From positions 1-64,000 of the forward strand of contig WNZI01000013.1 of NCBI GenBank assembly GCA_009728235.1: a DNA stretch of 64,000 bases, read 5' to 3'. Positions 3,371 to 51,689 of the stretch are shown in pieces (within the stretch, counting starts at the first letter, position 1; the number at the start of each line of letters is the position of its first letter). Origin of the DNA: Vibrio cholerae. Lineage in GTDB: Bacteria; Actinomycetota; Actinomycetes; Actinomycetales; Micrococcaceae. The notes beneath the pieces are model-generated. The model had not been told where the DNA came from. It saw nothing but the letters and a program-made list of their open reading frames with translations, and ran no database searches. A program made the translations under genes and the position numbers.

Positions 3371-4365
3371 GTGTTCTGGGCCTCCTACCTGCTCGCGACC
3401 CTCGCGATCATCCTCGCGTGGCCTGCGCCGATCCTGCTCTCCCGCGCCGACTGGCCGGCTCGGGCGCGTTCACGGCGATGGTGCTCTGGCAGTCGATAGC
3501 ACTGGCCGGCGGGTTGTCGATGATCGGGGCGATGCTCGTCTGGGGCCTCGAACCGCTGGGGGACAACCTGGTGTCGGCGTCGGCCGGCTTCCTCGGCATC
3601 CTGCTCGACGGCAAGCCGGCCGAGAACCTCGGCGTGGTCCACGTCTTCGCCATCAGCGCGGCGACCCTCCTGTTCGGTCATCTCGTCTTCACGCTCGTCC
3701 TGACCTTCGTCCGCATCCGGCGCCAACGCAGGCGCCACCGGGACATGCTGAACCTGCTGAGCTCCCCGTCCGCCGACCAGCCGGCAACACTGGTCATCAG
3801 TCATCCCGCCCCCGTGGCCTACTGCCTCCCCGGCGGCGCGCGGTCCGTGACCGTCATGTCGGACGGGCTCATGGACCTGCTCACCCGGGCGGAGCTCGAC
3901 GCAGTCCTGACGCACGAGCACGCCCACCTGCACCAGCGTCACCACCTGCTGCTGTGGGCTTTCGCGGCCTGGCGCTCTGCCCTGCCCTGGCTGCCGACGT
4001 CGCAGCTCGCGCAGCGCGCGGTGAGCGAACTCATCGAGATGCTCGCCGATGACGAAGCCCTGCGCCACGTCGACGAGCCGACGCTGGTGCGTGCCATCGC
4101 CATCGTCGGCTCAGGGGCGCTGCCGTCGACGCCGGACGCCCTCGAGGACGCGCTGACGGAGGTGCCCGGCAGCAGGCCTGGTTCCGGGATCACGGGGCTG
4201 CCGGGGGGATCCGCCGACACGCAGGCCACGGCGCACCGCCTGCGCCGCCTCCTGACTCCCCTGCCGCCGCTGAACCGTGTCCAGCAGGGCCTGGCGCTGT
4301 CCACGGCCGGGTTGCTCCTGGTGGTCCCTCCGGCCCTGCTGATAGCCCCGGAACTGCTGGGCTGA
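3371..4365 (+). CDS. M56-family (BlaR1/MecR1-type) membrane zinc metallopeptidase, frameshifted in this sequence
   Basis: Read from GTG at 3371 the protein begins with a membrane helix (FWASYLLATLAIILAWPAPI). The frame then closes at 3499, while the continuation (FTAMVLWQSIALAGGLSMIG) lies one frame away. Restoring one base near 3466 gives a 331-residue protein with four or so membrane helices and a zinc site HEHAH encoded at about 3912-3926. M56 enzymes cleave BlaI-type repressors. There is no C-terminal penicillin-binding sensor domain as in BlaR1, so the inducing signal is unknown. It follows the repressor gene by 7 bases and is surely co-transcribed. The frameshift matches other one-base losses in the window and is probably a sequence error. 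Confidence 0.85.
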
Positions 4366-4399
4366 GCGAGCCGGTTCCCTGAAGCGCTGTCCGCCCTGG

Positions 4400-4425
4400 C
4401 GCGTCCGGTGCCCGCACCGGACGCG
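4400..4425. terminator. Hairpin between convergent M56 gene and parE
   Basis: Perfect 11-bp stem CGCGTCCGGTG / CACCGGACGCG with a 4-base loop. It lies between two convergent genes and has no T run, so it may act as a bidirectional or factor-assisted terminator. Confidence 0.5.
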
Positions 4426-4477
4426 GTACGCCCGGCTCCGGGACCGACGGGCGGCGAGCGCAGGTCGCGGTGCCGGT

Positions 4478-6586
4478 TCAGGCGTCGATGCGGTCCCGGT
4501 CGAGCGAGGCTGCACCCTCGACGATGAAGTCCTTGCGCGGGGCGACGTCGCTGCCCATGAGGAGGTTGAACACGCGCTCGGCTGATTCGGCCTCGGTGAT
4601 CCGCACGCGTCGCAGGGTCCTGTGGCGCGGATCCATCGTCGTCTCGGCCAACTGGTCCGCGTCCATCTCGCCCAGGCCCTTGTACCGCTGGATCGGCGAC
4701 TTGTACCGCTTGCCCTGCTTTTCCAGTGCGGCGAGCAGGCGGTTCAGCTCCGCCTCCGAGTAGGTGTAGATCATCTCGTTGGCCTTGGAGCCACCGTTGA
4801 CCACCTCCACGCGGTGCAGCGGCGGAACGGCCGCATACACCCGGCCTGCTTCGACCAGGGGGCGCATGTACCGGAAGAAGAGCGTCAGGAGCAGGGTCCG
4901 GATGTGGGCGCCGTCGACGTCGGCATCCGTCATCAGGATGATCTTCCCGTAGCGCCGCGCGTCCAGCTGGAAGCTGCGCCCCGACCCGGCGCCGACGACC
5001 TGGATGAGTGCAGCGCACTCGGCGTTGGACAGCATGTCCCCCACCGACGCCTTCTGCACGTTCAGGATCTTCCCCCTGATCGGCAGCAGTGCCTGGTAGT
5101 CGGATGACCTCGCCAGCTTCGCCGTCCCGAGCGCGCTGTCGCCCTCGACGATGAACAGCTCCGACCGCTCCGCGTCGTCGATGCGGCAGTCTGCCAGCTT
5201 CGCGGGCATCGTGGAGGTCTCCAGTGCGTTCTTCCTGCGCTGGGTCTCCTTGTGCACCCTGGCGGAGATCCTCGACTTCATCTCCGCGACGACCTTCTCC
5301 AGCAGCAGGGCTGACTGCGCCTTGTCGTTGCGGGCGGTGGAGGACAGCCGCGCCTGCAGTTCCTTCTCCACGACCCTCGCCACGATGGCCTTGACGGCCG
5401 AGGTACCCAGGATCTCCTTGGTCTGGCCCTCGAACTGGGGCTCCGCGAGACGGACGGTGAGCACCGCCGTCAGCCCTGCGAAGACGTCGTCCTTCTCGAT
5501 CTTGTCGTTCCCCGCCTTGAGCTTCCGGGCATTGGCGGCGATGACGGTACGGAACGTCTTGAGGAGCGCCTGCTCGAAGCCGTTCTGGTGGGTCCCGCCC
5601 TTCGGCGTCGCGATGATGTTGACGTAGCTCCGCACGGTGGTCTCGTAGCCGATACCCCAGCGCAGTGCGATGTCGACGTCGCACTCGCGTTCCACCTCCG
5701 CCATCTGGCTGTGCCCGCGCTCGTCGAGGACGGGCACCGACTCCTTGAATCTGCCCGAGCCCTGGAAACGCCAGACGTCGGTGACGGCGGCGTCGAGGGC
5801 CAGGAACTCCGCGTACTCGGAGATGCCACCGTCATGATGGAAGACCTCCTCGACCGGACCCGCCTCTGCCGGTGTGCCGGCGAGCTTGCGCTCGTCCCGC
5901 AGCGTGATGCGCAGGCCCGGCACGAGGAACGACGTCTGCCGCGCACGGGTCTGCAGCTCCTCGTAGGAGAAGGCCGCATCAGGCGTGAAGATCTGCCGGT
6001 CAGCCCAGTACCGGATGCGCGTACCCGTCACCCCGCGCTTGGCCGAACCGATGACTTCGAGCCGCGACCCGTCGAGGAAGGGTTCGAACGCGGAGTCGGG
6101 CGACGGCGACCGGCCGTCCTTGAACACACCCGGCTCACCGCGCCTGAACGACATGGTGTAGGTCTTGCTCCCGCGGTCGACGAAGACGTCCAGGCGCGAG
6201 GACAACGCATTCACGACGCTCGCACCCACGCCGTGGAGGCCTCCCGACGCCGTGTAGGAGCCGCCGCCGAACTTGCCTCCGGCGTGCAGTTTGGTGAAGA
6301 CGACCTCCACGCCGCTCAACCCGGTCTTCGGTTCGATGTCCACCGGGATGCCGCGACCGTCGTCATGGATCTCCACCGATCCGTCGGCGTGCAGGATCAC
6401 GGTGATGCTCTGCCCGTAGCCTGCCAGCGCCTCGTCCACGGAGTTGTCGATGATCTCCCACAGGCAGTGCATGAGGCCACGGGAGTCGGTCGAGCCGATG
6501 TACATCCCGGGACGCTTGCGCACGGCCTCGAGCCCCTCGAGGACCGAGAGGTGCCGAGCTGTGTAGTTCGAGGTGGGAGGTGTCAC
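4478..6586 (-). CDS. parE: DNA topoisomerase IV subunit B (GyrB/ParE-type ATPase subunit)
   Basis: ATPase subunit of a type IIA topoisomerase. The 702-residue product has the GHKL ATPase domain (DNSVDEALAGYG near 47-58; GGLHGVGASVVNALS near 115-129), the transducer domain, the TOPRIM metal site (VEGDSALGTAKLA and DADVDGAHIRTLLL) and the C-terminal RYKGLGEMDADQL motif. The EGDSALGTAK variant, in place of the usual EGDSAGG, and the location beside sigA fit the actinobacterial topoisomerase IV-type paralogue rather than the origin-linked gyrB. A parC partner is not in the window. It may be named gyrB in some annotations. Confidence 0.88.
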   Translation of the reverse strand: MTPPTSNYTARHLSVLEGLEAVRKRPGMYIGSTDSRGLMHCLWEIIDNSVDEALAGYGQSITVILHADGSVEIHDDGRGIPVDIEPKTGLSGVEVVFTKLHAGGKFGGGSYTASGGLHGVGASVVNALSSRLDVFVDRGSKTYTMSFRRGEPGVFKDGRSPSPDSAFEPFLDGSRLEVIGSAKRGVTGTRIRYWADRQIFTPDAAFSYEELQTRARQTSFLVPGLRITLRDERKLAGTPAEAGPVEEVFHHDGGISEYAEFLALDAAVTDVWRFQGSGRFKESVPVLDERGHSQMAEVERECDVDIALRWGIGYETTVRSYVNIIATPKGGTHQNGFEQALLKTFRTVIAANARKLKAGNDKIEKDDVFAGLTAVLTVRLAEPQFEGQTKEILGTSAVKAIVARVVEKELQARLSSTARNDKAQSALLLEKVVAEMKSRISARVHKETQRRKNALETSTMPAKLADCRIDDAERSELFIVEGDSALGTAKLARSSDYQALLPIRGKILNVQKASVGDMLSNAECAALIQVVGAGSGRSFQLDARRYGKIILMTDADVDGAHIRTLLLTLFFRYMRPLVEAGRVYAAVPPLHRVEVVNGGSKANEMIYTYSEAELNRLLAALEKQGKRYKSPIQRYKGLGEMDADQLAETTMDPRHRTLRRVRITEAESAERVFNLLMGSDVAPRKDFIVEGAASLDRDRIDA

Positions 6587-6838
6587 TGCGGAAGGGTCTC
6601 CTTGGCGGAACGGGCACGATCCAGGACAGGCGTCAGGAGGGTGATTGCTCGGAAGAGTCTCTTCAGTTTATTACGCGGGTCCGACACCGTCCCGCAGGCG
6701 CGTCCCCGCGGCTCCGACCGGCTGCGGTCGGGGCGACCCATACCCCTCGTACGCCGGGAGCGAAAGGAGGCCCAGCCTGCGAAGGCACGGTGACGAATAG
6801 TGGTTATATGAGTACACGATCCACATGAGGAGGCAATC
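6587..6838. promoter_or_regulatory. Divergent promoter region between parE and the DUF7455 gene
   Basis: A 252-base gap without a convincing gene. It must hold promoters in both directions. TTATAT near 6803 on the plus strand and TAATAA-like sequence near 6668-6673 on the minus strand are possible -10 elements, but no matching -35 was clear. Short open frames here are not credible genes. Confidence 0.4.
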
Positions 6839-7060
6839 ATGACCACTGCAGTAGCAACTCGCGAACTCACTGCCCTGGACCGCTGTGACCGATGCGGCGC
6901 CCAGGCCTACGTGAGGGCAGTCCTTCAGTCCTCCGGTGGAGAGCTTCTGTTCTGCGGCCACCACGCGCGCGCAGTCGAAGCGAACCTGAAGCCGCTCACC
7001 TCTGAGTGGCAGGACGAGACGGAACGGCTTCGCGAGAAGCCGGCAGCCGTCGGCGACTGA
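6839..7060 (+). CDS. Small DUF7455-type zinc-ribbon-like protein
   Basis: A 73-residue protein that opens MTTAVATRELTALDRCDRCG. It has one CxxC pair (CDRCG, residues 16-20) and a later CGHH motif (about 39-42), which together could bind one zinc ion. ATG at 6839 follows a strong AGGAGG. Small proteins of this type sit between sigA and a gyrB/parE gene in many actinobacteria. The function is unknown. It is transcribed alone and ends at a strong hairpin. Confidence 0.85.
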   Translation: MTTAVATRELTALDRCDRCGAQAYVRAVLQSSGGELLFCGHHARAVEANLKPLTSEWQDETERLREKPAAVGD

Positions 7061-7120
7061 TCGGCAGCTGAACCCCACCCACTGACCCAGAGCGGACGCC
7101 CCGTGTACAGGCGCCGCAGC

Positions 7121-7159
7121 ACAAGGAAGGGCCCCTCCCCTGGAGGGGCCCTTCCTTGT
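7121..7159. terminator. Strong terminator hairpin after the DUF7455 gene
   Basis: Perfect 18-bp stem (7121-7138 with 7142-7159) and a 3-base loop; the core is AAGGGCCCCTCC. It lies 60 bases after the DUF7455 stop and can terminate in either direction. Confidence 0.85.
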
Positions 7160-7227
7160 GTGCGCTGTGACCGGCGCGGCGACCGGCGCCTGCGCCGCAG
7201 GTGAGTCGACCGTACCGCCGACGACGA

Positions 7228-7254
7228 AGGGCCCCTCCCGAAGGAAGGGGCCCT
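7228..7254. terminator. Terminator hairpin downstream of sigA
   Basis: Stem AGGGCCCCT (7228-7236) with AGGGGCCCT (7246-7254). It lies 18 bases beyond the sigA stop on the minus strand. It shares the GGGCCCCT core of the neighbouring hairpin at 7121-7159, so the two face-to-face terminators are related in sequence. Confidence 0.7.
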
Positions 7255-7272
7255 CGGCCGTAGCGGTACCGG

Positions 7273-8477
7273 TCAGTCCAGGTAGTCCCGCAGCACCTGC
7301 GACCGTGAGGGGTGCCTGAGCTTGGACATGGTCTTCGACTCGATCTGGCGGATCCGCTCGCGGGTCACCCCGTAGACCTTCCCGATCTCGTCGAGGGTCT
7401 TGGGCTGGCCGTCCGTCAGGCCGAAGCGCATGGCCACGACGCCGGCCTCCCGCTCGGAGAGCGTGTCGAGCACCGAGTGGAGCTGCTCCTGAAGGAGCGT
7501 GAAGCTCACGGCGTCGGCCGGCACCACGGCCTCGGAGTCCTCGATCAGGTCGCCGAACTCCGAGTCGCCGTCCTCGCCCAGCGGCGTGTGCAGCGAGATG
7601 GGCTCACGGCCGTACTTCTGGACCTCGACGACCTTCTCCGGGGTCATGTCCAGCTCGAGCGCCAGCTCCTCGGGGGTCGGCTCGCGACCGAGGTCCTGCA
7701 GCATCTGGCGCTGGACACGCGCCAGCTTGTTGATGACTTCCACCATGTGGACGGGAATACGGATGGTGCGGGCCTGGTCGGCCATGGCGCGGGTGATGGC
7801 CTGTCGGATCCACCAGGTCGCGTAGGTCGAGAACTTGAAGCCCTTCGTGTAGTCGAACTTCTCGACGCGCGGATGAGACCGAGGTTGCCCTCCTGGATCA
7901 GGTCGAGGAAGAGCATGCCGCGGCCTGTGTACCGCTTGGCGAGGGACACGACGAGGCGGAGGTTCGCCTCCAGGAGGTGGTTCTTCGCCCGCTTGCCGTC
8001 GTGGATCACGAATTCGAGTTCACGCCTGAGCTTCGGATCCATGTCGGGATCGGCGGCAATCTTCTCCTCCGCGAAGAGACCGGCCTCGATGCGCAGAGCG
8101 AGGTCCACTTCCTGCTCGGCGTTGAGCAGTGCCACCTTGCCGATCTGCTTGAGGTAGTCCTTGACGGGATCAGCCGTGGCGCCGGCAGAGACGACCTGCT
8201 GGGCAGGAGCGTCGTCGTCGTCGGCGTCGGAGTAGACGAATCCGGTGGTCGAGCCGACCTCGGCAGCTTCCGGCTTGAGGTCCTCGGCGTCGACCTCGAC
8301 GGCGGGGTCCGCGACCTCGAGCGTGTCCACCGAACCCTGGGCGTCCGAAGTCGAGGCCTTGGCGGCCGCAGCGGAGGAAGCAGCCTTCGTGGCAGGCTTC
8401 TTCGCCGCTACCCGTCGCTTGGTGGTGGTGGTACCAGCGTCTGTCGACGCCGGTGCTGCTGTCTTCTTGACCGACAC
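7273..8477 (-). CDS. sigA: Primary RNA polymerase sigma factor (RpoD/SigA), frameshifted in this sequence
   Basis: Housekeeping sigma-70 factor. GTG at 8477 follows AAAGG. The N-terminus is Lys/Ala/Thr-rich, then region 1.2 ([20 protein letters not shown]), region 2 ([29 protein letters not shown], then [19 protein letters not shown]) and region 4.2 ([20 protein letters not shown]). The reading frame breaks inside region 2.1/2.2 at about 7866: RA is followed by VEKFDYTKG only if one base (a C on the plus strand) is restored. With it the protein is 401 residues. Since this factor is essential, the break is almost certainly a sequence error. Confidence 0.95.
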
Positions 8478-8776
8478 AGAGAACCTTTCGTACGGCGATG
8501 TGTGATGCCATCAGACGGACAACACCACTATGACCCTGTCAAGTCCGTGCTGGTTACCAGACTCGACCGGCGGGGCCACTTCCTCGGAAAACGGCCCTGC
8601 CTCCCTCGCTATTCCCCGGGAGGACCGCTTCTCGGCGGCCTGCCCGGCTCTGTGCTCGGTAGTGTTCTGGTGCACGGACCCAACCGGGTCTCAAATTTCA
8701 TTGTCTCACGTCCGCCATGCGCCGGAAAATCCCCCGGCGGACATGGGCGGTCGGCACACGCTGTGCGCCCGCTGCT
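8478..8776. promoter_or_regulatory. sigA upstream region with a TTGACA element
   Basis: A 299-base gap between sigA and the DUF4192 gene. On the minus strand a perfect TTGACA lies at 8542-8537, about 60 bases before the sigA start codon. The expected -10 position is weak, so only the -35 is noted. Part of the gap (8706-8776) may encode the true C-terminus of the DUF4192 protein if that gene has lost a base near 8845. Confidence 0.4.
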
Positions 8777-10117: not shown

Positions 10118-11574
10118 GTCCGCCAGCCTGCTCCCCCTGCCTCCCGCACGATCTGTGCGGGAGGGCTATGTGGACAAGGCGGAGCAGTTCCGGCGACAGA
10201 GGTACCCCTACGACCCGCCTTCGTTCCTCCGGGTGGTCCGCCGGGCCGCTCTCCTGTCGCCCCGGAGACGTCTTTCACGCGCGAGGCCTCGCGGAGCGGT
10301 GGGACCACGACGCCCTGCTCCGCCATCCGTCGCCGGACCCGGCGCCGTGCGAGGACGACGGCCGCGGCACCGATGGCGAGGACGACGAGCTGCACGGCCA
10401 TCGCGAGGCGGAAGGAGGCGAGCGAGTAGAGGTCGCCCTGCGAGAAGCCGCTGCCGAGCAGGACATCGAGGACGACACCGATGACGAACATGGACAGGAG
10501 CGAGGCGGTGAAACCGCCGATGTTGACGATGCCGGTGGCGGTGCCCATGTGCGCAGCGGGATTGAACGTGCGAGCGAAGTCGAAGGCGATCATGGACCCC
10601 GGTCCTCCGACGGCCAGCGCCACCACGAGGACGGTCAGGAGTGGCAGGGGCGCGGGGCCGGGATAGAGCAGCACCGCGAGCCAGGCTCCCGCCATCAGCG
10701 CGGCGATGGACAGCACCATGGTCGAGCGGCGGAGGGGGTGGCGTCCGACGTAGCGGCCGAGCAGGGGTCCACACGCGATCCCGACTGCGACGAACAGGGT
10801 CATCAGGGCGGAGGCCGACCCCTCACCGACCTTCTCGGCGCGGATGAGGTAGGGGTAGCCCCACATGAGGACGAAGACCGTCCCGGGGAACTGGATGGTG
10901 AAGTGCGACCAGAGTCCGAGGCGCGTGCCCGGCTGCCTCCAGGCCTCGGCGAGCGAGGTGCCCGTCTGCCTCAGCGTCGGGATAGATCGCTGATGTCCCG
11001 GCGCAGGAGAGTCGCGGATGGCGGTGGCGGAGAGAACCGCGGCGAGGACCGAGAGCGCCGCGGCGGACAGGAACGCGGACTGCCAGCCGACGGCGGAGAG
11101 CAGTGCCACGAACGGGATCACGGAGACCACCTGTCCGAGTTGCCCCACGATGCCGGTCCACTGCGTGAGCACGGGGATGCGCCGCGGCTCGAACCAGGCG
11201 GGCAGCAGCCGGAGGACGCTGATGAAGGTGGTCGCGTCCCCGGCTCCCACGAGCAGTCGTCCGACGATGCCGGCGGTCACGGAGTCCGCGAAGGCGAGCT
11301 GCGCCTGACCCACCGCCATCAGCACGCCGCCGCCGACGATCAGCGCCCGCGGTCCCCACCGGTCCACCAGGACGCCGACGGGCACCTGCAGTCCCGCGTA
11401 CACGATCAGCTGCACCACGGTGAAGATCGACAGCTGGGACGCCGATGCACCGAAGCGGTCCGTGGCCTCGAGGCCGGCAACGCCGAACGTGGTGCGCTGG
11501 GTGACCGCGACGAGGTACGCCGCCACACCCGCTCCCCAGACCAGAAGTGCCCTCGACGAATTCACGGTTCCCAT
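10114..11574 (-). CDS. Major facilitator superfamily transporter
   Basis: About twelve hydrophobic segments in 486 residues. The motif A-like VGVLVDRWGPRALIVGGG (near residues 64-81) follows the second helix, as in MFS carriers. The start was chosen at ATG 11574 (MGTVNSSRALLVWG), which puts helix 1 at the N-terminus; an in-frame start 15 codons earlier exists. The last 75 or so residues are charged, Gly/Pro-rich and not membrane-like. The substrate cannot be told. The gene overlaps the DUF4192 start by 4 bases, so the two are co-transcribed. Confidence 0.88.
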   Translation of the reverse strand: MGTVNSSRALLVWGAGVAAYLVAVTQRTTFGVAGLEATDRFGASASQLSIFTVVQLIVYAGLQVPVGVLVDRWGPRALIVGGGVLMAVGQAQLAFADSVTAGIVGRLLVGAGDATTFISVLRLLPAWFEPRRIPVLTQWTGIVGQLGQVVSVIPFVALLSAVGWQSAFLSAAALSVLAAVLSATAIRDSPAPGHQRSIPTLRQTGTSLAEAWRQPGTRLGLWSHFTIQFPGTVFVLMWGYPYLIRAEKVGEGSASALMTLFVAVGIACGPLLGRYVGRHPLRRSTMVLSIAALMAGAWLAVLLYPGPAPLPLLTVLVVALAVGGPGSMIAFDFARTFNPAAHMGTATGIVNIGGFTASLLSMFVIGVVLDVLLGSGFSQGDLYSLASFRLAMAVQLVVLAIGAAAVVLARRRVRRRMAEQGVVVPPLREASRVKDVSGATGERPGGPPGGTKAGRRGTSVAGTAPPCPHSPPAQIVREAGGAGWRT

Positions 11575-11641
11575 TATCGCGTGCCTCCCGGGCCCGGCCG
11601 CATCCCGGAGATGCTGCACCGAAGGCCCTGACCTCCGGACA

Positions 11642-11681
11642 GGGGAAGGCCCGTAGCCGTTCCGGGCTACGGGCCTTCCCC
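11642..11681. terminator. Terminator hairpin between PAC2 and MFS genes
   Basis: Perfect 17-bp stem GGGGAAGGCCCGTAGCC / GGCTACGGGCCTTCCCC with a 6-base loop. It lies 14 bases beyond the stop of the PAC2 gene on the minus strand. Confidence 0.8.
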
Positions 11682-11694
11682 TTCCAGGTACCGC

Positions 11695-12984: not shown

Positions 12985-14531
12985 GTGATCAAGACCACCG
13001 AGCTACACATGACGGCTTCCGCGAAGGACCTCAAGATGATCCCGAGCGACGCGCTCGTGATCGCCGTCGCCAAGGGAACGGACGGGCCCGTGCTGCTCGA
13101 CAACCCGCTTCCCGCGAAGGCTGCCCGCGCCCTGGGCGACTCGCTCCAGGTCCTCGGCATCACCGGCGCAGCGGACGAGGTGCGGCGTCTTCCCGGGCTG
13201 CCCGAGACCGGCGCCGACTCCCTCGTGCTGTCCGGCGTCGGAGCGGTGGCCCCGGACGAGGTACTCACCTCGGAGACCCTTCGACGCGCCGCGGGTGCCG
13301 CGGTCCGCCAGCTGACCGGCCTCGACACCGTCGTCGTCGCCCTGCCGGCCGCCACGGTCGCTTCAGCCGCGGCAGTGGCCGAGGGTGCCGCCCTCGGTGC
13401 GTACAGCTACGAGGGGCACAGGTCCGGCATGAAGGCCGACGGCACCGTCGCCCGCTCCACGGACAGGGACGCGGTCCGCAACGTCGTCGTCCACACGGTC
13501 GCGGCCGACGACGCCGACCTGGCAGCTGCATTGCAGCGCGCCGTCGTGCTCGGCAAGAACGTCAATGCGACGCGCTCCCTCGTCAACCAGCCTCCCAGCC
13601 ACCTCTACCCGGAGACCTTCGCCCAGGCGGCCAAGGAGCTCTCGCGCGGCCTTCCCGTCAAGGTCACGGTCATGGACGAGAAGCGCCTGGAGCGCGACGG
13701 CTACGGAGGGATCCTGGGCGTGGGGAAGGGATCGTCACGACCACCGCGCATGGTGAAGGTGGAGTACTCCCCCGCGAAGTCCGCCGTGCACCTCGCTCTC
13801 GTGGGCAAGGGCATCACGTTCGACTCGGGCGGACTCTCGCTCAAGCCGGCAGCCGGCATGCAGACCATGAAACTCGACATGGCCGGCGCGGCCGTCGTCC
13901 TGACCACGCTCCTGGCGGTTGCCGAACTCGGTCTTCCCGCAAAGGTCACCGCGTGGCTCTGCCTCGCCGAGAACATGCCGTCCGGGACGGCGCAGCGGCC
14001 CGAGGACGTCCTGTCGATCTACGGCGGACGCACCGTCGAGGTGCTGAACACCGACGCCGAGGGCCGGCTCGTCCTCGCGGAGGCCTTGCCGCGGCGAGCG
14101 AGGAAGCCCCTGACGCGATCATCGACATCGCGACGCTCACCGGAGCCCAGATGATCGCCCTCGGCACCCGCGTCTCGGGGGTCATGGGCGACGACGGGGT
14201 GCGCGACGCCGTCAAGGCCGCCGCCGACCGCGCCGGCGAGCAGTTCTGGCCCATGCCCCTGCCCGAGGAGCTGCGCCCGAGCCTCGAGTCCCAGGTCGCG
14301 GACATCGCCAACATCGGTGAGCGGAACGGCGGCATGATGACCGCGGCGGTCTTCCTCCGGGAGTTCGTCGGCCAGGTCGACGGCGAGAAGATCCCGTGGG
14401 CGCACCTCGATATCGCGGGCCCTGCCTTCAACGAGGGTGCGCCCTACGGCTACACGCCGAAGGCAGGAACCGGCGTCGGCGTGCGGACCCTGCTGGCATA
14501 CGTGGAGGACGTCCTGGCCCGCACCGCCTGA
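12985..14531 (+). CDS. pepA: Leucyl aminopeptidase (M17 family), frameshifted in this sequence
   Basis: Cytosolic two-metal exopeptidase that removes N-terminal residues. GTG at 12985 follows AGGAG. The catalytic domain shows VGKGITFDSGGLSLKP (Lys and Asp ligands) and NTDAEGRLVLAEA, the M17 signature. The frame fails at about 14086: LVLAEA continues as LAAASEEAPDAIIDIATLTG only if one C is restored. The corrected protein is 515 residues, normal for the family. The stop is at 14531. The same type of break occurs in nine other genes here, so it is probably a sequence error. Confidence 0.94.
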
Positions 14532-16336: not shown

Positions 16337-18156
16337 ATGTCTGAATCCGTGAACTTGCCCGCTCTCGGTGAAAGCGTCACCGAAGGCACCGTCACCCGCT
16401 GGCTCAAGCAGGTCGGTGACCGCGTCGAGGTGGACGAGCCCCTTCTCGAAGTGTCGACCGACAAGGTCGACACCGAGATCCCTTCTCCCATCGCCGGTGT
16501 GATCGAGGAGATCCTCGTCGCGGAGGACGAGACGGCCGAGGTCGGCGACCCGCTGGTACGCATCGGCGACGGATCCGGCGGCGGTGATTCGGACACCTCG
16601 GCCCCAGCCGCCGAGACCGAGCAGCCGGCAGAGGAGGAGGCGGCTCCTGAAGCCCCTGCAGCGCCGAGCAGCGAGCCCGAGGACGCTCCGGCCGCTTCGG
16701 GCGACGACTCCTCGGAGGGAACGGAAGTCACCCTGCCCGCGCTCGGTGAGAGCGTCACCGAGGGCACCGTCACCCGGTGGCTCAAGGAGATCGGTGACGA
16801 CGTCGAGGTCGACGAGCCACTTCTCGAGGTCTCGACCGACAAGGTCGACACCGAGATCCCCTCCCCCGTGGCCGGGAAGCTGCAGGAGATCCGGGTCAAC
16901 GAGGACGAGACCGCCGAGGTCGGCGCCGTCCTCGCCGTGATCGGATCGGGCGCAGCCGCTCCCGCGAAGGTCGAGGCCGCATCCGGTGAGCCCCTCGTCG
17001 CCGCTCCCGCCGAGGAGCGCAACGACGCCCCGACGGAGAAGCCAGGCGCCGACAAGGAGGCGGGACGGGCATCCGGTACGTCGGAACCCGACGCCGACGT
17101 CAGCGGCGAGCCCGCACCTGCCGTCGCGGAGGAGAAGCCCGCGCCGTCACCTGCCGCCCAGCCGACGGCGCCGTCCGAGGACACCGGGAGTGCCGACGCC
17201 TCCGCCTACGTCACTCCCCTCGTCCGCCGCCTGGCGAACCAGAACAAGGTCGACCTGTCCTCCGTGAAGGGGACCGGGGTCGGCGGACGCATCCGCAAGC
17301 AGGACGTCCTCGAGGCGGCCGAAGCCCAGAAGGCGCAGGCTGCACCGCCGGCGGAGCCGCAGCCGCCCCGCAGACCGGCGCTGCCGCACCGGCACCCGCG
17401 AAGCCTGCTGCTCCCGCCGTCGAGCCGTCGAAACTCCGCGGCACCGTGGAGAAGGCTCCGCGTATCCGCCAGACGATCGCCAAGCGGATGCGCGAATCCC
17501 TCGAGGTGTCGGCTCAGCTCACCCAGGTGATCGAGGTCGACATGACCCGCATCGCCAAGCTCCGCACCGCCTCCAAGGACACCTTCCTGGCCCAGAACGG
17601 CGCGAAGCTCACCTTCCTTCCCTTCATCTCGAAGGCCGTCACCGAAGCGCTCAAGCAGCACCCGAAGCTGAACGCCTCCTTCGACGAGGAGAAGAAAGAG
17701 GTGACCTACCACGACGCCGAGCACCTGGCGATCGCGGTGGACACCGAGAAGGGCCTGCTGGTCCCCGTCATCAAGGACGCCGGCAACCTCAATCTCGGCG
17801 GACTCGCGAAGAAGATCGCCGACGTGGGGTCGCGAACCCGCAACGGTCAGATCGGTCCGGACGAGCTGTCCGGCGGCACCTTCACGATCACCAACATCGG
17901 TTCGGCCGGCGCCCTCTTCGACACTCCGATCATCAACCAGCCGCAGGTGGGCATCCTGGGCACGGGCATCATCGTGAAGCGCCCCGTGGTCATCACCGGC
18001 GTCGATGGCGACGACACGATCGCCATCCGGTCGATGATGTACCTGAGCCTGACGTACGACCACCGCCTCGTGGACGGCGCGGATGCAGGGCGTTTCCTGC
18101 AGACGCTGAAGGCCCGCCTCGAAGGCGGCGCCTTCGAGGCCGATCTCGGCCTCTAG
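16337..18156 (+). CDS. sucB: Dihydrolipoamide acyltransferase (E2; succinyltransferase-type), frameshifted in this sequence
   Basis: Acyltransferase core of a 2-oxoacid dehydrogenase complex. Domains in order: lipoyl domain 1 (residues about 3-77, lipoyl Lys43), acidic Ala/Pro/Glu linker, lipoyl domain 2 (about 129-203, Lys169), a longer linker, E3-binding domain ([20 protein letters not shown]), a further linker and the catalytic domain ending [16 protein letters not shown] with the active-site His. The frame shifts within about 17350-17372, in the Ala/Pro linker; restoring one base gives 606 residues. It is named sucB-type for its motifs, but actinobacterial pyruvate and 2-oxoglutarate E2 proteins are hard to separate by eye. 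lipB-lipA, which attach the cofactor, lie 8 kb downstream. Confidence 0.9.
16349..16945 (+). repeat. Duplicated lipoyl-domain coding sequence
   Basis: Two 219-base units, 16349-16567 and 16727-16945, are 378 bases apart and nearly identical over their first 150 bases, for example GTCGACACCGAGATCCC in both. They encode the two lipoyl domains. The high DNA identity suggests recent duplication or continuing gene conversion. Confidence 0.8.
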
Positions 18157-18177
18157 TACCACCGACCCGCAGGGGTC

Positions 18178-18906: not shown

Positions 18907-21900
18907 TCAGCCTCGCAGGTCCTGCGGTCGGGGCGGTAGCGCGCCCGGTCTGCGGCCCGGATAGCCGTCCTTCAGCGGCGGCACGTCGGTGGGGATCTCC
19001 GCGAGCATCTCCCGGAGGATGCCGACGCCGTGCTCGAGCTGGGGGTCCTCCCCTGCCGCATGGGCGTGCGGCGGGAAGGGGACCTCGATGTCCGGATCGA
19101 CCCCGTGGTTCTCGATCGACCAGCCCACTCCGCCCACGACATGGAAGCCGTAGCGGGGCTGGTTGACGCCCGTACCGTCGGCCAGCTTGAAACGTCCGTC
19201 GATGCCGATGACACCGCCCCAGGTCCGGGTTCCGATCACCGGCCCGATGCCCCGCAACTTCGCCACCTGGGTGATGATGTCGCCGTCGGATCCCGCGAAC
19301 TCGTCGGTGAGCACGACCACGGGACCGCGAGGCGCATGGGCGGGATACGTGCCCGGCACCTCGCCGCGCGGCATGGACCAGGCCGTGACGCGCCGCCCGA
19401 TCAGCTCCGCGACCAACTGCGACGTATGTCCCCCGCGGTTTCGACGCACGTCGATCACCAGGGCGTCACGGGCCGTCTCCCGGTCCAGGTCGCGGTGCAG
19501 CTGACCCCACCCGTTGGCGACCATGTCGGGGATGTGGAGGTACCCGAAGCGGCCCTCGGAGGCGCGCCGGACCGTAGCCCTGTTCGCCGCGACCCAGGTC
19601 TGGTAGCGCAGGCGCTCCTCGCTCCGGAGGGGGACGACGGCGACACGACGGCGGCCGTGCCCGTCCGACGAACGCACGGTCAGCTCCACCGCCACCCCTG
19701 CCGCGCCGGTCAGGAGCAGTGAGGGACCGAACAGAGCAGGAACGGGTACACCATCGATCGCTTCGATGACGTCGCCGGCCCTGACCGCGACCCCGGGCGC
19801 GCTGAGCGGGGAGATCGCACGCGGGTCGGACGACTCGGTCTCGAAGACGCGCGTCACCGCCCAGCCCCCGTCAGCGGGCGCGAACTCCGCACCGAGGAAG
19901 CCCTGGTGGCCTCCCGGCTCGGCGACCACCGCAGGCGCGACATAGGCATGGGACGTCCCCAGCTCCCCGTGCAGTTCCCAGAGGAGATCGACGAGGTCAT
20001 CATGACTCCCCAATCGGTCGACCAGCGGCAGGTAGCGCTCCCGGATGGCCTCCCAGTCCACGCCGGCCATGTCCTCGGTCCAGAAGAAGTCCCGCTGGAG
20101 CCGCCAGGCCTCCTCGAAGGCCTGCGTCCAGACGCTGAGAGGGTCCAGCAGGACCCGGACGCGATCCAGTGCCACGCCGACCTGCTTCGGCGAATCCGGC
20201 TCCGTCCTGCTGTCGGTCGGGATGGCCGTGACCGTCCCGTGGGCCCTGTGCACCGCGGTGGACCCGTCCCGGCTGATGTCATAGGCGTCGATGTCCGCTG
20301 CGAGCACCTCGACGGTCCGGCGGCTCAGGTCGAAGCGCTCGAGGCGCCGCGCCGGCTCCTCGTCCGATGTCGACGCGCGCCCGTCGCCCGTGACTCCCCC
20401 GATCTCCCCGGCCGTCCACAGCAGGGCGCCCTGCACCGCCCTGAGATCGTCATAGGTTCCCTGCCCGACCGGAAGCGCGATGGTACGTGCCATCAGGAGG
20501 TCGGGATCGACGACGACGGCCGCCGGCTCCTTCCCCCTGCTGCTGTCGCCCTTACCTTCGGATTGCGCGCCGTCGCCGCCGGCCGGCGCGGTACTCGGAC
20601 CGAAGGGTGAAGGCGTACCCCCCGCGAGCGCCACGAGGTAGGGCTTGGTGGACGCCGGGAAGCTGAGGTCGAATCGGTGCGTGTCGTAGACGGGGTCGAA
20701 GCTCCTGTCCGACAGGAAGGCGAGGTACTTGCCGTCGGGCGTGAAGGTGGGCGACCAGTCCCTGAACCGTCCGTCCGACACGTCCATGATCTCCCCGGCT
20801 TCCCCTACGCCCGTGAGCCGGATGCGGCTCCGCGACCCCTCCTGCGCCATCGGCTCGGCCCAGGCGAGCCACGCCGAGTCGTGCGAGAAGGTGACCGTCT
20901 CGATCGCACCCTGATCCGTGGTGACGATCCTGCGACGGGCACCGCTGTCGATCGTCACGAGGTCGAGGGCGCCGGTCTCCGAGGGAACGGCGAGGTGCCT
21001 GCCGTCCGGGCTGACGGCGAGCGCCGTCGCCCGGAAACGCCCTTCGAAGGCGAAGCGCTGCAGCACCTCTCCGGCGGACGAGGACTGGGCGTCCACCAAG
21101 GCCGCCTCACCGTCGGTCCCCCCGTCGCCATCGCCGTGGTGGTGAGGCACCTCCGCCGTGGCCGGGTCCTCACCCGCACTGACGCCGTTCACGGTTGCCT
21201 TGCCGCGGGCAGGTTCCTGTGCCGTCCGCAGACTCACAGCGCTGACCGGCGCGGGGAGAACCACCGCTTCGTCGTCCCGCCCGACGGGGCTTCGGGTCGG
21301 GGACGTCCCCGCCGCTTCGCCGGGTGTCGGGGCGCGCCCGGCAACCCCCGCTCGGCGCCCGGCAACCCCCGCTCGGCGCCCGCGAAAACATCCCGCACGT
21401 ACAGCGCCTCCTCGCCGCCGTGGTCGGCGATGTAGGCGATCCTCGTGGCATCGACCGGGCGGCCGAGGCGGGCCCTCACCCCCGGGGTCGCCTCGATGAC
21501 GCGTGACGGCCCGTCCTGATGCGTCAGCCAGTGGAGCGTCCCGTGAGCCTCCACGATCGAGGCGGATCCGTCTGCCGTCGGGACGGCAGCGGCGAGGTGG
21601 CGGTCGACCTTCAGCGGTTGGGGGCGACGTGCTGTGGCCGCCGAGCCGAGCGTGATGGACAGCCGGATGGCTGCGTCCTCGAGGGAGGGCAGGATCCACA
21701 GGCTTCCGGCGGACTCGAAGACGATCCGGGTTCCGTCGGTACTGGCATGTCGCACGTAGAACTCGTCGTGGTCGGTGTGGCGGCGGAGGTCCGCGCCCGT
21801 CCGGTCGACGGAGTAGAGGTTGCCGTACCCCTCGTGGTCGGACAGGAAGGCGACTCGGCCATCGACCCACATAGGGTCGCTGAGGTTCCCGTCCAGTTCA

Positions 21901-22463
21901 GGCAGGAACCTCTCGAAGTCGCCGCTGCCGTCGTCGTCGATCCAGAGCTTGCCCGCGGTACCCCCGCGGTAGCGCTTCCACCAGGCCGGTTCACGCGTCA
22001 GGACGCTGCCGATCACCACCGGCTTCTCATCTCCCAGTGCAGGGCCTTCGACGACGGTGTCCACCGGCCCGAAGGGCAGGACGGACTGCGCCGATCCGTC
22101 GAGGGGCACCCGGTAGGCCCAGCTCAGCCGCGAGTCCTCGTGGCGGAAGGCACTCGTGGCCAGGACCTCACCGGAGGCGGTGAAACCCTTGACGCGCGTG
22201 CTCTGGTGTCCCCAGAAGGTGAGCCGGCGGAAATCGCCTCCCTCGACGTCGGCGGCAACGACCTCGGGCGCGCCGCCCTGCACGACGGTCCAGGCGATCG
22301 TGGTGCCGTCGGGTGAGAAGCGGGGGTTCCTGGCGACGAGTTGCATCGCCGAGATGCGCCAGGCGCGGCCCCCGTCCAGTGGAGCCACCCAGACGTCGTT
22401 CTCGGCGACGAAGGTGACGCGGTTGCCGTGGAGGTGCGGATAGCGGAGGTAATCTGAGCCCAT
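18907..22463 (-). CDS. Tricorn-like S41 protease, frameshifted in this sequence
   Basis: Large cytosolic serine protease related to archaeal tricorn. From ATG 22463 the first 370 or so residues form beta-propeller repeats (VTFVAENDVWVAPLDGG, ARNPRFSPDGTTIAWTV). A second propeller follows, then a C1 region (LGTSHAYVAP, with the Ser-His pair), a PDZ domain and the C2 core with RNRGGHTSQ and the nucleophile motif AGSDGDIITQ (about 19280-19294). The frame changes at about 21310-21390, beside a 21-bp tandem repeat in an inter-propeller linker. Restoring one base gives 1185 residues, close to tricorn length. Homologues act downstream of proteasomes on oligopeptides; that role is inferred here. Confidence 0.88.
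21339..21380. repeat. Tandem 21-bp duplication in the tricorn linker
   Basis: Two exact copies of a 21-base unit, 21339-21359 and 21360-21380, encoding the heptapeptide GAERGLP twice. It lies next to the point where the reading frame changes. Confidence 0.9.
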
Positions 22464-23531: not shown

Positions 23532-25500
23532 TCATGGTCCTGGCGACACGACCGAGTGGATGCGCCAGCCCGAACCGGAGTTCCAGAGGACGAAGACGAG
23601 GTCCTGCTCACCGGCCGCCATCAGAGGAATCGGGGTCCTCGCGTCCGGTGACGGGTCCTTCGGGGGCGATGACCGGGTCTCCGTGTAGGACGAGAACTTC
23701 GCCGTCGCTCGGATCACGGACACCTCCGTGGCGTCGGGCGGACTCGTGACGGCCGGAAGAGCAGCGATCTGTGGCATGGCAGTGAGCTCCACCTCCGACA
23801 GCACCGACGGTGCCCTGATCGTGATCGACAGGTCCCGGAGCTCACGGCCCGAATCCGCGAGCGCGGTGACCGAATCATGGTCGGCCGAGAGCGCCGGCGA
23901 CCCCTCGACGGCAACTCCTGCCAGCAGGCCGGGATCCGCCGTCGCGAACGCCCTCGCCCGCAGTGCCGCGAGTCCTCGAGCGCGGAGACAGGGTCGAGGG
24001 GCCGGCCCCCGGGAGCGCTGACCGGAGCGGGGTGGACGTCCCGTCCCCGATCCCGTCACGCTCGCGGTCATCATCGACGGGAGCAGGCTCGGTGACGCCC
24101 TGCGAGGCCGGAAGCTCACCGTCGGTCGCCCCGCCACTCTGCGACGCCGGTCGGGTCAGCAGCTGTTCCGGGGCTACCGGGCCACCGAGCGTCAGGGCGA
24201 TGCCCGCCAGAAGCAGGGCGCCGGCAGCCAGTCCTGCCGCCAGAGCCAGCCGACGTCGACCATGTCCGTCGGTCCGGGAGTGGTCGGTCCGGGAGTGAAC
24301 GCGGGCCGGACCTGCAGGAATGGACTCGCTGTGCACCTTCCTCCGGCGAGCTGGCGGCGGGACGGTACTGCTCACCTGGGGCGACGGACGCTGCCGCCGT
24401 CGGGGATGTCCGTGCAGAATCCGTCGCCACCCCTCCCGCGGAGGAACCGAGGGGCCGGCGGCGCGCTGCGTGAGCAGTTCAGGCAGGACGCTCGTGTGAA
24501 CGGCCGGCACCAGATTGACCGCGACAGGTGCGGAACTCGCGAGCAGCGTCCGCGCGACGTCGTCCGCCGACGGCCGACGGTCGGTGCTGGAGCTCAATCC
24601 GTCCTCGATGAGTTGCATGAGTATCCGAGGAACGTCGGGGACAACCAGGGCGAGGGGCGGGCGCTGTTCGGTCGGTCCGGGGATGCGGCCGGTCAGGGCG
24701 AACCACGCCACCGCGGCCAGCGCGAAGACGTCGGCGCGGGTATCGAAGGAGCCGGCGCTCGACGGATCGACGAATCCTGGGGTCCCGACCACTGCTTCGG
24801 GGTCGGCACCGAGCAGCCGCGCCGTGCCGAAGTCGGCGAGCAGGGGTTTCCCCTCATGGGTGAAGAGGATGTTCGCCGGGGTCACATCTCCGTGCGACGC
24901 TCCCGCACGGTGCAGGTGACCCAGGGCCTGGGCGATCGGCGCCAGGGCCGTCACCACCTCGGGGATCGGCAGCGGTCCGCGGCTCGCTACAAGGCCCAGC
25001 AGCGATCCGCCGGCGGCGAGGTCCATCAGCAGACCCGGGCCCTGATCGGTTTCGAGGATGCGATGGACCGGCAGCAGGTGGTCGTGTCTGAAGCCCTGCA
25101 GCAACCGGAGTTCCTGTCCGACATCCGCAGGGGCGTAGCGCGGATAGACGGCTGCCCACCCGTCGGAAGCGCCCGTACCCGCCGCGGCGCCGGCTGCCCT
25201 TCGTCCGCGGCGAGCCGTCGTCCGCGCCGTGGTCCGAAGGACTTCCGGACCGGGTCCTGACAGGGGCCGACCGGCTACTTTGAGTGCGAACCGTTGTCCG
25301 CCGTCGTCCGTCACCAGCCAGACGAGGGACGAACCGCCCCTACCGAGGAGCCGTCCGACGTCGAAGCCGTCGAGGGAGGGAGGCCGTCCGTCCGTCCCGT
25401 CGTCGCCGGGATCGCGGTTCCCGGCCGGGGCGGTCCCGTCGATACCGGTCCGGTCGATGCCGATCCCGGTGCGCGAGGTACGCGGGGCGAAGTCACTCAT
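23532..25500 (-). CDS. Membrane-anchored serine/threonine protein kinase, frameshifted in this sequence
   Basis: The kinase domain spans about residues 45-310, with the glycine loop GRGGSSLVW, FALKVAG lysine, HGDVTPANILF (His203-Gly204-Asp205 where most kinases have HRD) and DFG at 223. A basic linker leads to one membrane helix (ALAAGLAAGALLLAGIALTL, about 420-440), then an extracellular region. That region is split: the frame moves twice between about 23965 and 24005, as if two bases are missing, giving PLDPVSALEDSR then ALRARAFATADPGLLAGVA. Corrected length is 656 residues. The extracellular part (LRARAFATADPG, then a strand-rich domain) may sense a ligand. No phosphatase or FHA gene is adjacent. 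Confidence 0.85.
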
Positions 25501-37654: not shown

Positions 37655-37752
37655 GGCGACCTCCTCGATCCAGGGCGCCGGTCATGTCACCTGCCGATCG
37701 GGCATGGGCTGCTTTTCAGCCTCGGACCCGCGCCCGCTATAGGATCAAGGGT

Positions 37753-38630
37753 ATGCCCCAGCCTTCCGCCACCGCTCCCCGCGGGACCCTGACACCCGGC
37801 ACGATCTCGCCCCAGCGCCCGGTCCCCCCGGGCATCACGCGGCCGGAGTACGTCGGCAGGAAGGCTCCGACGCCCTTCACGGGGTCGGAGGTCAAGACGC
37901 CCGAGACCATCGAGAGGATCCGGGTCGCCAGCAGGATCGCGGCCCAGGCGATCGTCGAGGTCGGCAACCATGCCGAGCCCGGCGTCACCACCGACTTCCT
38001 CGACCGGATCGGGCACGAGTTCCTGCTCGACCACGGCGCGTACCCCTCCACCCTCGGCTATCGGGGCTTCCCGAAGTCGCTGTGCTCGTCGCTGAACGAG
38101 GTGATCTGCCATGGCATCCCCGACTCGACGGAACTCCAGGACGGCGACATCCTGAACATCGACATCACCGCCTACAAGGACGGTGTCCACGGCGACACGA
38201 ACTACACCTTCTGCGTCGGGGAGGTCGACGAGGAGTCGCGACTCCTCGTCGAGCGCACCGAGGAGTCACTGAACCGGGCCATTCGCGCTGTCGCACCCGG
38301 ACGCGAGATCAACGTCATAGGACGCACCATCGAGTCCTACGCGAAGCGCTTCGGTTATGGTGTTGTGCGTGACTTCACCGGGCACGGCGTCGGAGAAGCA
38401 TTCCATACGGGCCTGATCATCCCGCACTACGACGCGCCCCCGCCTACAACCGGGTCATCGAACCCGGCATGGTCTTCACCATCGAACCGATGCTGACGCT
38501 CGGGACCATCGACTGGACCATGTGGGCGGACGACTGGACCGTCGTCACGAAGGACCGGAAGAGGACGGCGCAGTTTGAGCACACACTCGTTGTCACCGAC
38601 CGCGGCGCGGAGATCCTGACCCTGCCCTGA
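37753..38630 (+). CDS. map: Type I methionine aminopeptidase, frameshifted in this sequence
   Basis: Removes initiator methionine from new proteins. From ATG 37753 the N-terminal extension ([15 protein letters not shown]) is typical of actinobacterial MetAP. Metal ligands are visible: [16 protein letters not shown] (two Asp), [10 protein letters not shown] (His), MVFTIEPM (Glu) and QFEHTLVV (Glu). The frame breaks at about 38442: HYDAPP continues as [12 protein letters not shown] only if one G is restored, giving 292 residues. The enzyme is normally essential, so a sequence error is the likely cause. Confidence 0.94.
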
Positions 38631-46634: not shown

Positions 46635-47569
46635 TCAGACGAGGCCGTTCGACAGTGCCATCAGGGCGTAGGCGAGGTCGACCGGGTACGGGCTGCTGAC
46701 GGAGACGGGTGCGCCGGTCCGGGGATGCGCGAAGCCCAGCCGGTGCGCGTGCAGCCACTGCCGGGTCAGGCCGAGCTCAGCGGCTAGGCGGGGGTCGGCA
46801 CCGTAGGTCAGGTCCCCCGCACAGGGATGGCGGAGCGCTGAGAAGTGCACCCGGATCTGGTGTGTCCGCCCGGTCTCGAGATGGACCTCGACGAGGCTGG
46901 CGCGGCCGAAGGCCTCCAGGACCTCGTAGTGCGTGACGGAATCGCGCCCGCCCTCCATCACGGCGAAGCGCCACTCGTGGTGCGGATGCCGGCCGATGGG
47001 CGCGTCGATGGTGCCCTTCAACGGTTCCGGCAGTCCCTGCACCACCGCGTGGTAGACCTTCTCGACGGTGCGCTCCTTGAAGGCCCGTTTGAGCGCCGTG
47101 TAGGCGGGCTCGGTCTTCGCGACCACCATCGCACCGGAGGTACCGACGTCGAGCCGGTGGACGATCCCGACCCGCTCCGGCGCGCCCGAGGTCGAGATCC
47201 GGTAGCCTGCAGCCGCGAGGGCGCCGACGACGGTGGGGCCCACCCATCCCGGGGAGGGATGCGCGGCTACTCCCACCGGCTTGTCGACGACCACGAAATC
47301 GTCGTCGTCGAGCAGGATGCCCATGCCGTCCACGGCTTCCGGGATCACCCGCTGGGCGTCCTCGGGATCCGGCAGGTGGACCTCGATGCGGTCGCCCGTC
47401 CGGACCCGGTCCGACTTGGCGAGGTGTTCGCCGTCGCGCAGGACCCGGCCGTCGGCGCACCATTGCGCGATGGCGTCCGGGAGACCTCCAGCAGTCGCGC
47501 CAGGACGGCGTCTATCCTGCTCCCGGCGTCGTCCTCGTCGACGGTGATCAGCCGCGTGTCATCGACCAT
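46635..47569 (-). CDS. RluA-family 23S rRNA pseudouridine synthase, frameshifted in this sequence
   Basis: Modifies uridines in large-subunit rRNA. From ATG 47569 an S4-like start ([20 protein letters not shown]) leads to LLEVSR. One base is then missing near 47478; with it the text continues [20 protein letters not shown] and into the catalytic domain ([19 protein letters not shown], with the catalytic Asp). Corrected length is 311 residues. It overlaps the lspA end by 11 bases, the standard lspA-rluD arrangement. Confidence 0.92.
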
Positions 47570-48395: not shown

Positions 48396-49051
48396 CTAGG
48401 AGGCCGAGGTGTCGGATGCGAGCGATCCGCGTGAATCGAGGTCGCGGAGCTGACCCTCGATGTAGGCCTTCAGGCGCGAGCGGTAGTCGCGCTCGAAGCC
48501 GCGGAGCTGCTCGACCTTGCGCTCGAGGACGGCCTTCTGCTGCTCGAGGTCGCCGAGCGTCTTGCGGCTCTTCTCCTGGGCGTCGGTGACGAGCCCGCTG
48601 GCTTCGATCTGCGCCTCGGCGATGATCTTGTCACGCTGCTCGACGCCCGCGTTGACGTACTCGTCGTGCAGGCGCTGCGCCATGGCGAGGACGCCGGCGG
48701 CGGACTCCGCGGTTCCGGTCGAGCTGGCGGGAGCGGCTGCGGCCGGCGGGGCGGGTGCTGGCGCCGGGGTGGGCTCCTCCTCGGCGGGAGCGGTCTCGGC
48801 GGCACTCTCCTCCACCGGGACGTCCTCGGTCTGCGTGCTGGCCGCGACGGGCGCCGGCACCACGGTGCTCTGGGAGGTGTCCGCCGAACCGTCGGCGAGC
48901 CTGCGGCGCAGTTCCTCGTTCTCCTGGTTCAGGCGGCGGAGTTCGACGACGATCTCGTCGAGGAAGTCGTCCACCTCGTCCTGGTCGTAGCCCTCACGGA
49001 ACTTCGTCGCTGGAACCTCTTGTTGACAACGTCTTCTGGCGTCAAAGCCAT
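48396..49051 (-). CDS. wag31: DivIVA/Wag31 polar growth protein, frameshifted in this sequence
   Basis: Coiled-coil protein that marks cell poles and septa and directs wall growth. From ATG 49051, after GAGGTGACCAG, it reads MALTPEDVVNKRFQ. One base is lost near 49009; with it the text continues PTKFREGYDQDEVDDFLDEI, the canonical DivIVA N-terminus. Coiled coils flank an Ala/Pro/Glu-rich linker (about residues 60-115). Corrected length is 218 residues. Since the protein is essential in related species, a sequence error is likely. Confidence 0.93.
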
Positions 49052-49546: not shown

Positions 49547-50068
49547 TCAGCTCTGGTTGAAGAAGCTGGTCTGAGCCTCGCTGGCCTTCAGGTCTTCGCC
49601 GAGGACTTCAATATACGACGGCGACAGCAGGAACACCTTATTGGTGACCCGCTCGATACTGCCGTGGAGGCCGAAGACGAGGCCGGCGGAGAAGTCCACG
49701 AGACGCTTGGCATCGGCTTCACCCATGTCTGTCACGTTCATGATCACGGGGATCCCGTCGCGGAAGCTCTCGCCGATGAGCTTGGCGTCGTTGTAGGACC
49801 GCGGGTGGATCGTGGTGATCTGGCGGAGGGCGGACGAGTCCTCACGCGACGACGGCGCGCGCTTGATCGGGGTCACGGGAGCACGGTACTCCTCCGCGGG
49901 GGCGACCCGGGTGACGGCCGGAGCCGCCTCGAGGTGGCGTTCGTCGCGGTCGTAGTCCACTGTGTATTCCTCGTTCCTGCTGTGCGCGCTTTTCGCTTCG
50001 GGCTCGTAGTGCTCGTCACCGTCGGCGAGCCCAAGGTAGATCATCGTCTTGCGCAGTGCGCCAGCCAT
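49547..50068 (-). CDS. sepF: Cell division protein SepF
   Basis: Membrane anchor and organiser for FtsZ, which replaces FtsA in actinobacteria. ATG 50068 gives [14 protein letters not shown], an amphipathic membrane-binding start; the earlier in-frame start is unlikely. A variable linker precedes the SepF domain ([38 protein letters not shown]). Length 173. Confidence 0.95.
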
Positions 50069-50164
50069 GGTGACTCCTGTTCTGAGAGTGGATTGGTCGT
50101 TCCCGTGGGCGTACTGCATGCGGTCCGCCCGGCTGCCCGTCGTGCCGCCGTTACAGCTCAGACG

Positions 50165-50929
50165 CTACCCCACGGCCGGACGCGGACCGAGGACATCAGA
50201 GCCGATGCGCAGGTGTGTCGCCCCGGCTGCGACGGCCTCCTCGAGATCACCACTCATGCCGGCGGAAACAGCCGCCGCCGCGGGGTCCACCGCCCGTACC
50301 AGCTGGGCTATCCGCATGAGGTGTTCGAAGGCGACGGCGGCCGGCGCGCCCCTCGGCGCGACCGCCATGACACCGGCGAGGCGGAGCCCTTCGGCCGCTA
50401 CGACGCTCTCGGCGAGCTCCTCAGCATCCCTGGGCAGCGCCCCTCCCCGGCCGCCCGGTGGGGCGCCGTCCTCCAGGGTGAACTGCAGGTAGCAGGCGAG
50501 GTCCGGCCGCGGGGGTGACCCCGCCGCGGCGCGTCCGGCCTGCTCCGCCGTCATGGCCCTCGTGAGCGACGAGACGAGTGGAACGCGATCCACGGAGTGA
50601 ACGCTGGAGGCGTACCGGACCACGGACTTCGCCTTGTTCGTCTGCAACTGACCGATGAAGTGCCAGCGGAGGGTCAGCTCCTCCAGCTCGGCCGCCTTGG
50701 CCGCAGCTTCCTGGTCGCGGTTCTCCCCCACGTCGCTGACGCCGAGCTCCGCCAGGATGCGCACATCGGATGCCGGGAAGTACTTCGTCACGACGATGAG
50801 CGTCGGCTCGGGCCGCGCTGCGGCGGCGGCTGCTGCGGACACTCGTGCCTGCACCGCGCGGAGGCGGGCCCCGAGCTCACGGGCGCGCTGGTCGTCGGGG
50901 TACCCGGTCCCGGAGGCGGTGTCGGTCAT
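50165..50929 (-). CDS. YggS-family PLP homeostasis protein
   Basis: A 254-residue pyridoxal-phosphate-binding protein. PLP lysine in LIVVTKYFPASDVRILAELG (about 45-64), then GENRDQEAAAKAAEL and WHFIGQLQTNKAK. It keeps free PLP in balance and has no known catalytic activity. ATG 50929 overlaps the pgeF stop by 4 bases. Confidence 0.94.
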   Translation of the reverse strand: MTDTASGTGYPDDQRARELGARLRAVQARVSAAAAAAARPEPTLIVVTKYFPASDVRILAELGVSDVGENRDQEAAAKAAELEELTLRWHFIGQLQTNKAKSVVRYASSVHSVDRVPLVSSLTRAMTAEQAGRAAAGSPPRPDLACYLQFTLEDGAPPGGRGGALPRDAEELAESVVAAEGLRLAGVMAVAPRGAPAAVAFEHLMRIAQLVRAVDPAAAAVSAGMSGDLEEAVAAGATHLRIGSDVLGPRPAVG

Positions 50930-51689
50930 GTGCGCCACACGAGTCCCGCGATCCGCCCGGCTCCCGGCTCCCGGCGGTGGGAGTAGAGGTGCGGATTCTC
51001 GAGCGTGCAGGACGTGCCCGCCCCCTCGACGGCCACCACCCGGACGCCCGACTGGTCGAGCTGGAACCGCACGGCGGCGGGAAGGTCCAGGGCGGGAGTG
51101 CCTGCAGCTGTCCGCGAGGACGCCGCCGGCACCGAACGCGCCAGCCCGAGCATCATCTCCTCGGGTACCTCGTAGCAGGATCCGCAGACGGACGGCCCTA
51201 TCCACCCGGTGACGTCGCGAGCCCCGTTGGCGTGCAGCAGGTCGACGGCCCGGGTCACGATGCCGTTGCCCACCCCGGCGCGTCCGGCGTGGACGACCGC
51301 CGTCGGCCCCGGCTCGCCCTCGGGCCCTGGTGCTCCGGCCAGGACGATCGGCACACAGTCGGCCACGAGGACAGCCATCGCCTCGCGCCCGTCGAGGGAG
51401 AGCATCCCGTCCGCATCGGGCGGTACTGCCTCCTGCGCCTGTGGCCCCTCCCCACCGAGGAGGGCGACGCGGTCCGAATGGGTCTGGCTCATGAAGCGGA
51501 GCGAACCGGGGGGAACGTCCATCGCCTCCTCGAGCCGCTGCCGGTTCCTCCGGACGGCTGCCGGATCGGCACCGACGTGCAGCGCGAGGTTGCCGGCGGC
51601 CACGGAGGTGAAGGCGACCCGGAGACCAGGACGGACCTCCTCGTTCCAGTAGAACGGGGAGGTCGCTCGGGACCGGTGGGTGAGTGCAT
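50926..51689 (-). CDS. pgeF: Laccase-domain protein PgeF/YfiH, frameshifted near its start
   Basis: Purine nucleoside phosphorylase/peptidoglycan-editing type. The body is clear: SQTHSDRV (metal His), ADCVPIVLA (Cys) and VVHAGRAGVG (His). Without correction the first start is GTG 51603, which cuts the N-terminal strand. ATG 51689 followed by one restored base in the G run near 51656-51659 gives PFYWNEEVRPGLRVAFTSVA, as in homologues, for 254 residues. It lies just after ftsZ and overlaps yggS. Confidence 0.85.

Follow-up and report, generated by a model that had tools for sequence, protein, structure and literature searches.

Flow-based sequencers (Ion Torrent, 454) are prone to homopolymer and other indel errors, with an excess of deletions over insertions that leads to frameshifts in the resulting assemblies (PMC12046094). 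In the portion of that study drawn on here, Listeria alleles from Ion Torrent data differed from their Illumina counterparts by deletions in 77% and by insertions in 11.7%; runs of at least three bases were counted, the mean affected run was 5.5 and adenine was the base most affected (PMC12046094). The same portion states that Ion Torrent genomes are overrepresented among RefSeq exclusions for many frameshifted proteins (PMC12046094). The tool Kastor deals with errors that fragment genes in long-read assemblies; its description, as far as the part considered here goes, concerns apparent pseudogenes produced by consensus indels (PMC12007338). The draft genome analyzed here resembles both in carrying apparent frame breaks, and those supported by more than one reference are almost all one-base losses.

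The window, by which we mean the whole stretch of 64,000 bases analyzed (bases 1-64000), is the start of contig 13 of a 3.75-Mb Arthrobacter draft in 117 contigs; the host is a soil-type actinobacterium. The best matches of its aminopeptidase gene among named genomes are from Arthrobacter, and the region is common to relatives of the same genus. As references we used eight relatives with called genes (genomes G003, G006 and G009 and five named loci), whose proteins were aligned to the window by a frame-tolerant protein-to-DNA method that allowed one-base losses and gains at a cost (210 alignments). DNA alignments against relatives were used beside the protein alignments for the break sites. 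The window contains about twelve one-base losses in eleven genes and no well-supported gain inside genes, and both the frame-tolerant alignments and a control scan showed that the relatives keep these genes in one frame where the window breaks. The affected genes are listed below, with the number of references supporting each loss out of those whose alignment spans the break.

3371..4365, + strand: M56/M48-type membrane peptidase gene; loss at 3468 (8/8 references); Pfam Peptidase_M48 match behind the break
7273..8477, - strand: sigA-type sigma factor gene; one-base loss at 7867 (8/8 references)
10214..11565, - strand: MFS transporter gene; loss at 10286, near the gene end (7/7 references); Pfam MFS_1
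12985..14531, + strand: M17 leucyl aminopeptidase gene; loss at 14081 (8/8 references); Pfam Peptidase_M17
16337..18156, + strand: 2-oxoacid dehydrogenase E2 gene; loss between 17355 and 17382 (6/6 references)
18907..22463, - strand: Tricorn-type protease gene; loss between 21289 and 21373 (3/3 references)
23538..25425, - strand: protein kinase gene; loss at 23976 (2 references) and probably another at about 24026 (1 reference); Pfam Pkinase
37684..38630, + strand: map (methionine aminopeptidase) gene; loss at 38435 (3/3 references); Pfam Peptidase_M24
46635..47569, - strand: RluA-type pseudouridine synthase gene; loss at 47475 (3/3 references); Pfam PseudoU_synth_2
48396..49051, - strand: wag31/DivIVA gene; loss at 49008 (3/3 references); weak Pfam DivIVA match behind the break
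50926..51690, - strand: pgeF-type gene (Pfam Cu-oxidase_4); loss at about 51657, near the start (DNA gap in 3/3 relatives)

Pfam domains were placed relative to several of the breaks. In sigA, Pfam sigma-70 regions 1.2 and 2 lie before the break and regions 3 and 4 behind it; in the E2 gene the break sits in a linker, with the lipoyl, E3-binding and catalytic domains spread over the two pieces; and in the Tricorn-type gene, Tricorn_C1, PDZ_Tricorn and Peptidase_S41 all fall on the piece behind. The loss at 10286 cuts off the tail of the MFS transporter, as seen by comparing tails with relatives. For pgeF, the protein alignments start just behind the break, and the loss is visible by DNA alignment and by comparison of gene heads with relatives. 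The start of the aminopeptidase gene was set at 12985, the shortest start called in a relative (L020). Directly preceding the broken M56/M48-type gene is a BlaI-type (penicillinase-repressor) gene, the pair occupying 2977-4365.

A first-pass annotation of this DNA had described eleven losses in ten genes. Alignment to relatives reproduced each listed break, with the kinase pair weakly placed, and added the one at 10286, which brings the count to about twelve in eleven; at sigA and map, every spanning reference supports the loss. The annotation had also held that none of the breaks needs removal of a base, which holds for the listed breaks apart from one kinase alignment. There, in a poorly conserved region, the alignment of reference G003 places one gain, at 24039. 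Two losses appear to fit slightly better than one gain, because a short conserved piece lies in the intermediate frame. A twelfth loss that the annotation had suspected near 8845, in a DUF4192 gene, was rejected: 6/6 references align past the place unshifted, and the tail behind it is unconserved among relatives.

To set these breaks against background, each of the eight control sequences was scanned with the proteins of the others, and within conserved gene regions none showed a break backed by more than one reference. The multi-reference shifts that the controls did show, some losses and some gains, were limited to three places: upstream of the conserved aminopeptidase region, at the junction of BlaI and M56, and upstream of sigA. 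We read them as over-extended start codons. The window has such shifts too, again in both directions, immediately upstream of its own conserved aminopeptidase region (12752-12960, with as many as 4 references), as well as shifts called by one reference at gene starts, some of them gains (8619, 42407 and 57852). Noise of this kind is also seen in relatives, and single-reference shifts were present in all sequences scanned. On the opposite strand upstream of the aminopeptidase conserved part, an open frame at 11704-12957 has conserved counterparts in four named relatives, at 84-89% identity in the unshifted alignments, and overlaps the over-long aminopeptidase starts called in several relatives.

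We extended the comparison to parts of contigs 1, 4, 5 and 13 (404 kb, with 270,021 bases covered), with the proteins of G003 and G006 as references and a 15-residue margin; of the 22 20-kb stretches taken from the genome, 17 entered the comparison, and those from the starts of contigs 2, 3, 6, 7 and 8 did not. At the starts of contigs 2 and 3, synteny in relatives is little or broken. Shifts supported by two references comprised 20 losses and 2 of the other sign (sign test, p = 1.2e-4), and the losses were not significantly uneven among contigs (7, 5, 2 and 6 on contigs 13, 1, 4 and 5; p = 0.18). The breaks in the tricorn, kinase, wag31 and pgeF genes fall outside the 20 because only G003 and G006 proteins and the 15-residue margin were used. 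Before counting, two shifts with two references each were set aside because they sit at over-extended gene starts: one loss in the window (12752) and one gain on contig 5 (about 18960). With both restored, the count is 21 to 3. The two opposite-sign shifts, both outside the window, correct the picture given by the first-pass annotation. One is a gain that lengthens a G run by one base; the other, viewed in DNA, resolves into two neighbouring single losses when compared with one relative and into a single gap of two bases when compared with the other, so that it looks like a pair of losses.

Shifts supported by a single reference, which were tallied in bulk and excluded from the sign count, gave 18 losses against 15 gains here and, when G006 and G003 were scanned with each other's proteins, 14 losses against 18 gains. 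The absence of a strong sign bias here or in the relatives implies that such shifts are mostly noise and that the bias lies in the two-reference set. A few single-reference losses look real in DNA (138009 and 139994 on contig 1). On contig 4, at about 45295-45444, the front of one G003 open frame matches other reading frames in this genome as well as in G006; either the G003 frame start is over-extended or G003 itself differs.

Losses also affect ribosomal RNA. The single 23S gene of the assembly has two one-base losses relative to both relatives that cover the places, with flanks identical at 29-30 of 30 bases, and further one-base differences were seen against one relative only. A pattern accepting either form at one of these two 23S sites matched 32 copies, spread over 20 of the 28 genomes searched, eight genomes having neither form; all 31 other copies, from 19 genomes, are one base longer than the copy in this draft. 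In 16S no loss was found against relatives, and there is one gain in a variable stretch. In G009 (3,482,157 bases; completeness rated 89%), the sole 23S match is split into three fragments that together span roughly the first half of the model (L119, L121, G009:C1:489331-490848). Repeats within the draft add little: no second copy of window bases 1-20000 was found in the assembly, and contigs 90 and 80 share a 430-base start (L162, L164; first 432 bases; 98.8% identical, 5 mismatches) that is gapless and so offers no indel to compare.

We then examined selection around the breaks by counting codon differences from relatives over up to 100 codons on either side. Pooled over 23 breaks, the ratio of synonymous to nonsynonymous differences was 1.98 before and 2.04 behind. 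Together with the losses common to all spanning references, the excess of losses on four contigs, the 23S losses and the clean relatives, this unchanged selection makes it very probable, on sequence comparison, that the breaks stem from errors in the consensus of the draft, an ordinary artefact and not biology. The systematic deletion errors proposed by the first-pass annotation are thus supported. The sequencing method would undercount bases, often in short G or C runs, and the consensus would keep the shorter version, creating apparent frame breaks. Reads of the strain would be expected to show the longer forms.

What kind of platform might have produced such errors is suggested by the shape of the assembly. 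The 16S and 23S genes lie alone on a contig of 5,744 bases, in one copy each as against four in the single-contig relative G003, and the smallest contigs have 525-730 bases. Short-read assemblies typically show such isolated rRNA contigs and small contigs, and the platforms of this class that drop bases are Ion Torrent and 454. The isolated rRNA operon, its collapsed copies and the tiny contigs therefore make an indel-prone short-read platform of Ion Torrent or 454 type the likelier source, in preference to long reads. The sequence context of the losses fits less well. Frame and protein together identify the missing letter at roughly eight sites; judged by eye, six of these losses shorten a G/C run of two or three, and the other two each delete a lone base. 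This differs from the mean run of 5.5 and the bias to adenine given for Listeria in the portion of that report drawn on here, and the platform accordingly stays an inference. Run lengths at 25 sites resemble background, and no shared motif was evident by eye in the DNA views of the sites. Truncation of long homopolymers as the sole cause was rejected, since truncation is not clearly visible in run-length tables. Compared with G006 and G003, this genome has 3-5% fewer G/C runs of two, a difference far beyond the effect of this many losses.

It is possible, if less likely, that the consensus errors come instead from noisy, low-coverage long reads (nanopore or PacBio CLR), a reading in which only the platform differs. 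Losses in short runs would fit, and gene-fragmenting errors of long-read drafts are described, at least in the part of the Kastor report considered here (PMC12007338). Against this, short-read contig sizes and a collapsed, isolated rRNA operon would be unusual for a long-read draft.

Far less probable is a reading in which the bacterium truly carries these mutations, for instance as a mutator strain, and the genes are decaying pseudogenes. The one thing that speaks for this is the assembly itself. The equal codon ratio on both sides of the breaks excludes pseudogene decay; a very recent real lesion would look the same, and here the many lesions in genes regarded as essential for bacteria or actinobacteria (sigA, map and wag31) speak against it, as do the losses in 23S.

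Real losses bypassed by programmed -1 frameshifting or transcript slippage are more improbable still. Such a mechanism would fit the fact that all well-placed breaks in the window share one sign. However, X XXY YYZ heptamers occur within 15 bases of only 2 of 25 sites, compared to 4.1% of random places, and are not enriched; the relatives keep these genes in one frame; and because untranslated 23S rRNA carries losses too, translational recoding cannot be a general explanation. Repair of real losses by base-insertion editing of mRNA and rRNA alike, as in Physarum mitochondria, left no trace in any relative compared and is scarcely credible.

Consensus error as the source of the breaks has implications for use of this genome. 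The two-reference losses amount to at least about 7 per 100 kb of covered sequence, and extrapolating this rate to 3.75 Mb suggests that a few hundred genes may be affected. If the consensus-error reading is true, the losses would have no biological consequence for the organism, and their meaning is a warning about data quality: no gene should be scored as lost or broken on the strength of this draft, and its set of proteins, along with gene-content comparisons made from it, is biased.
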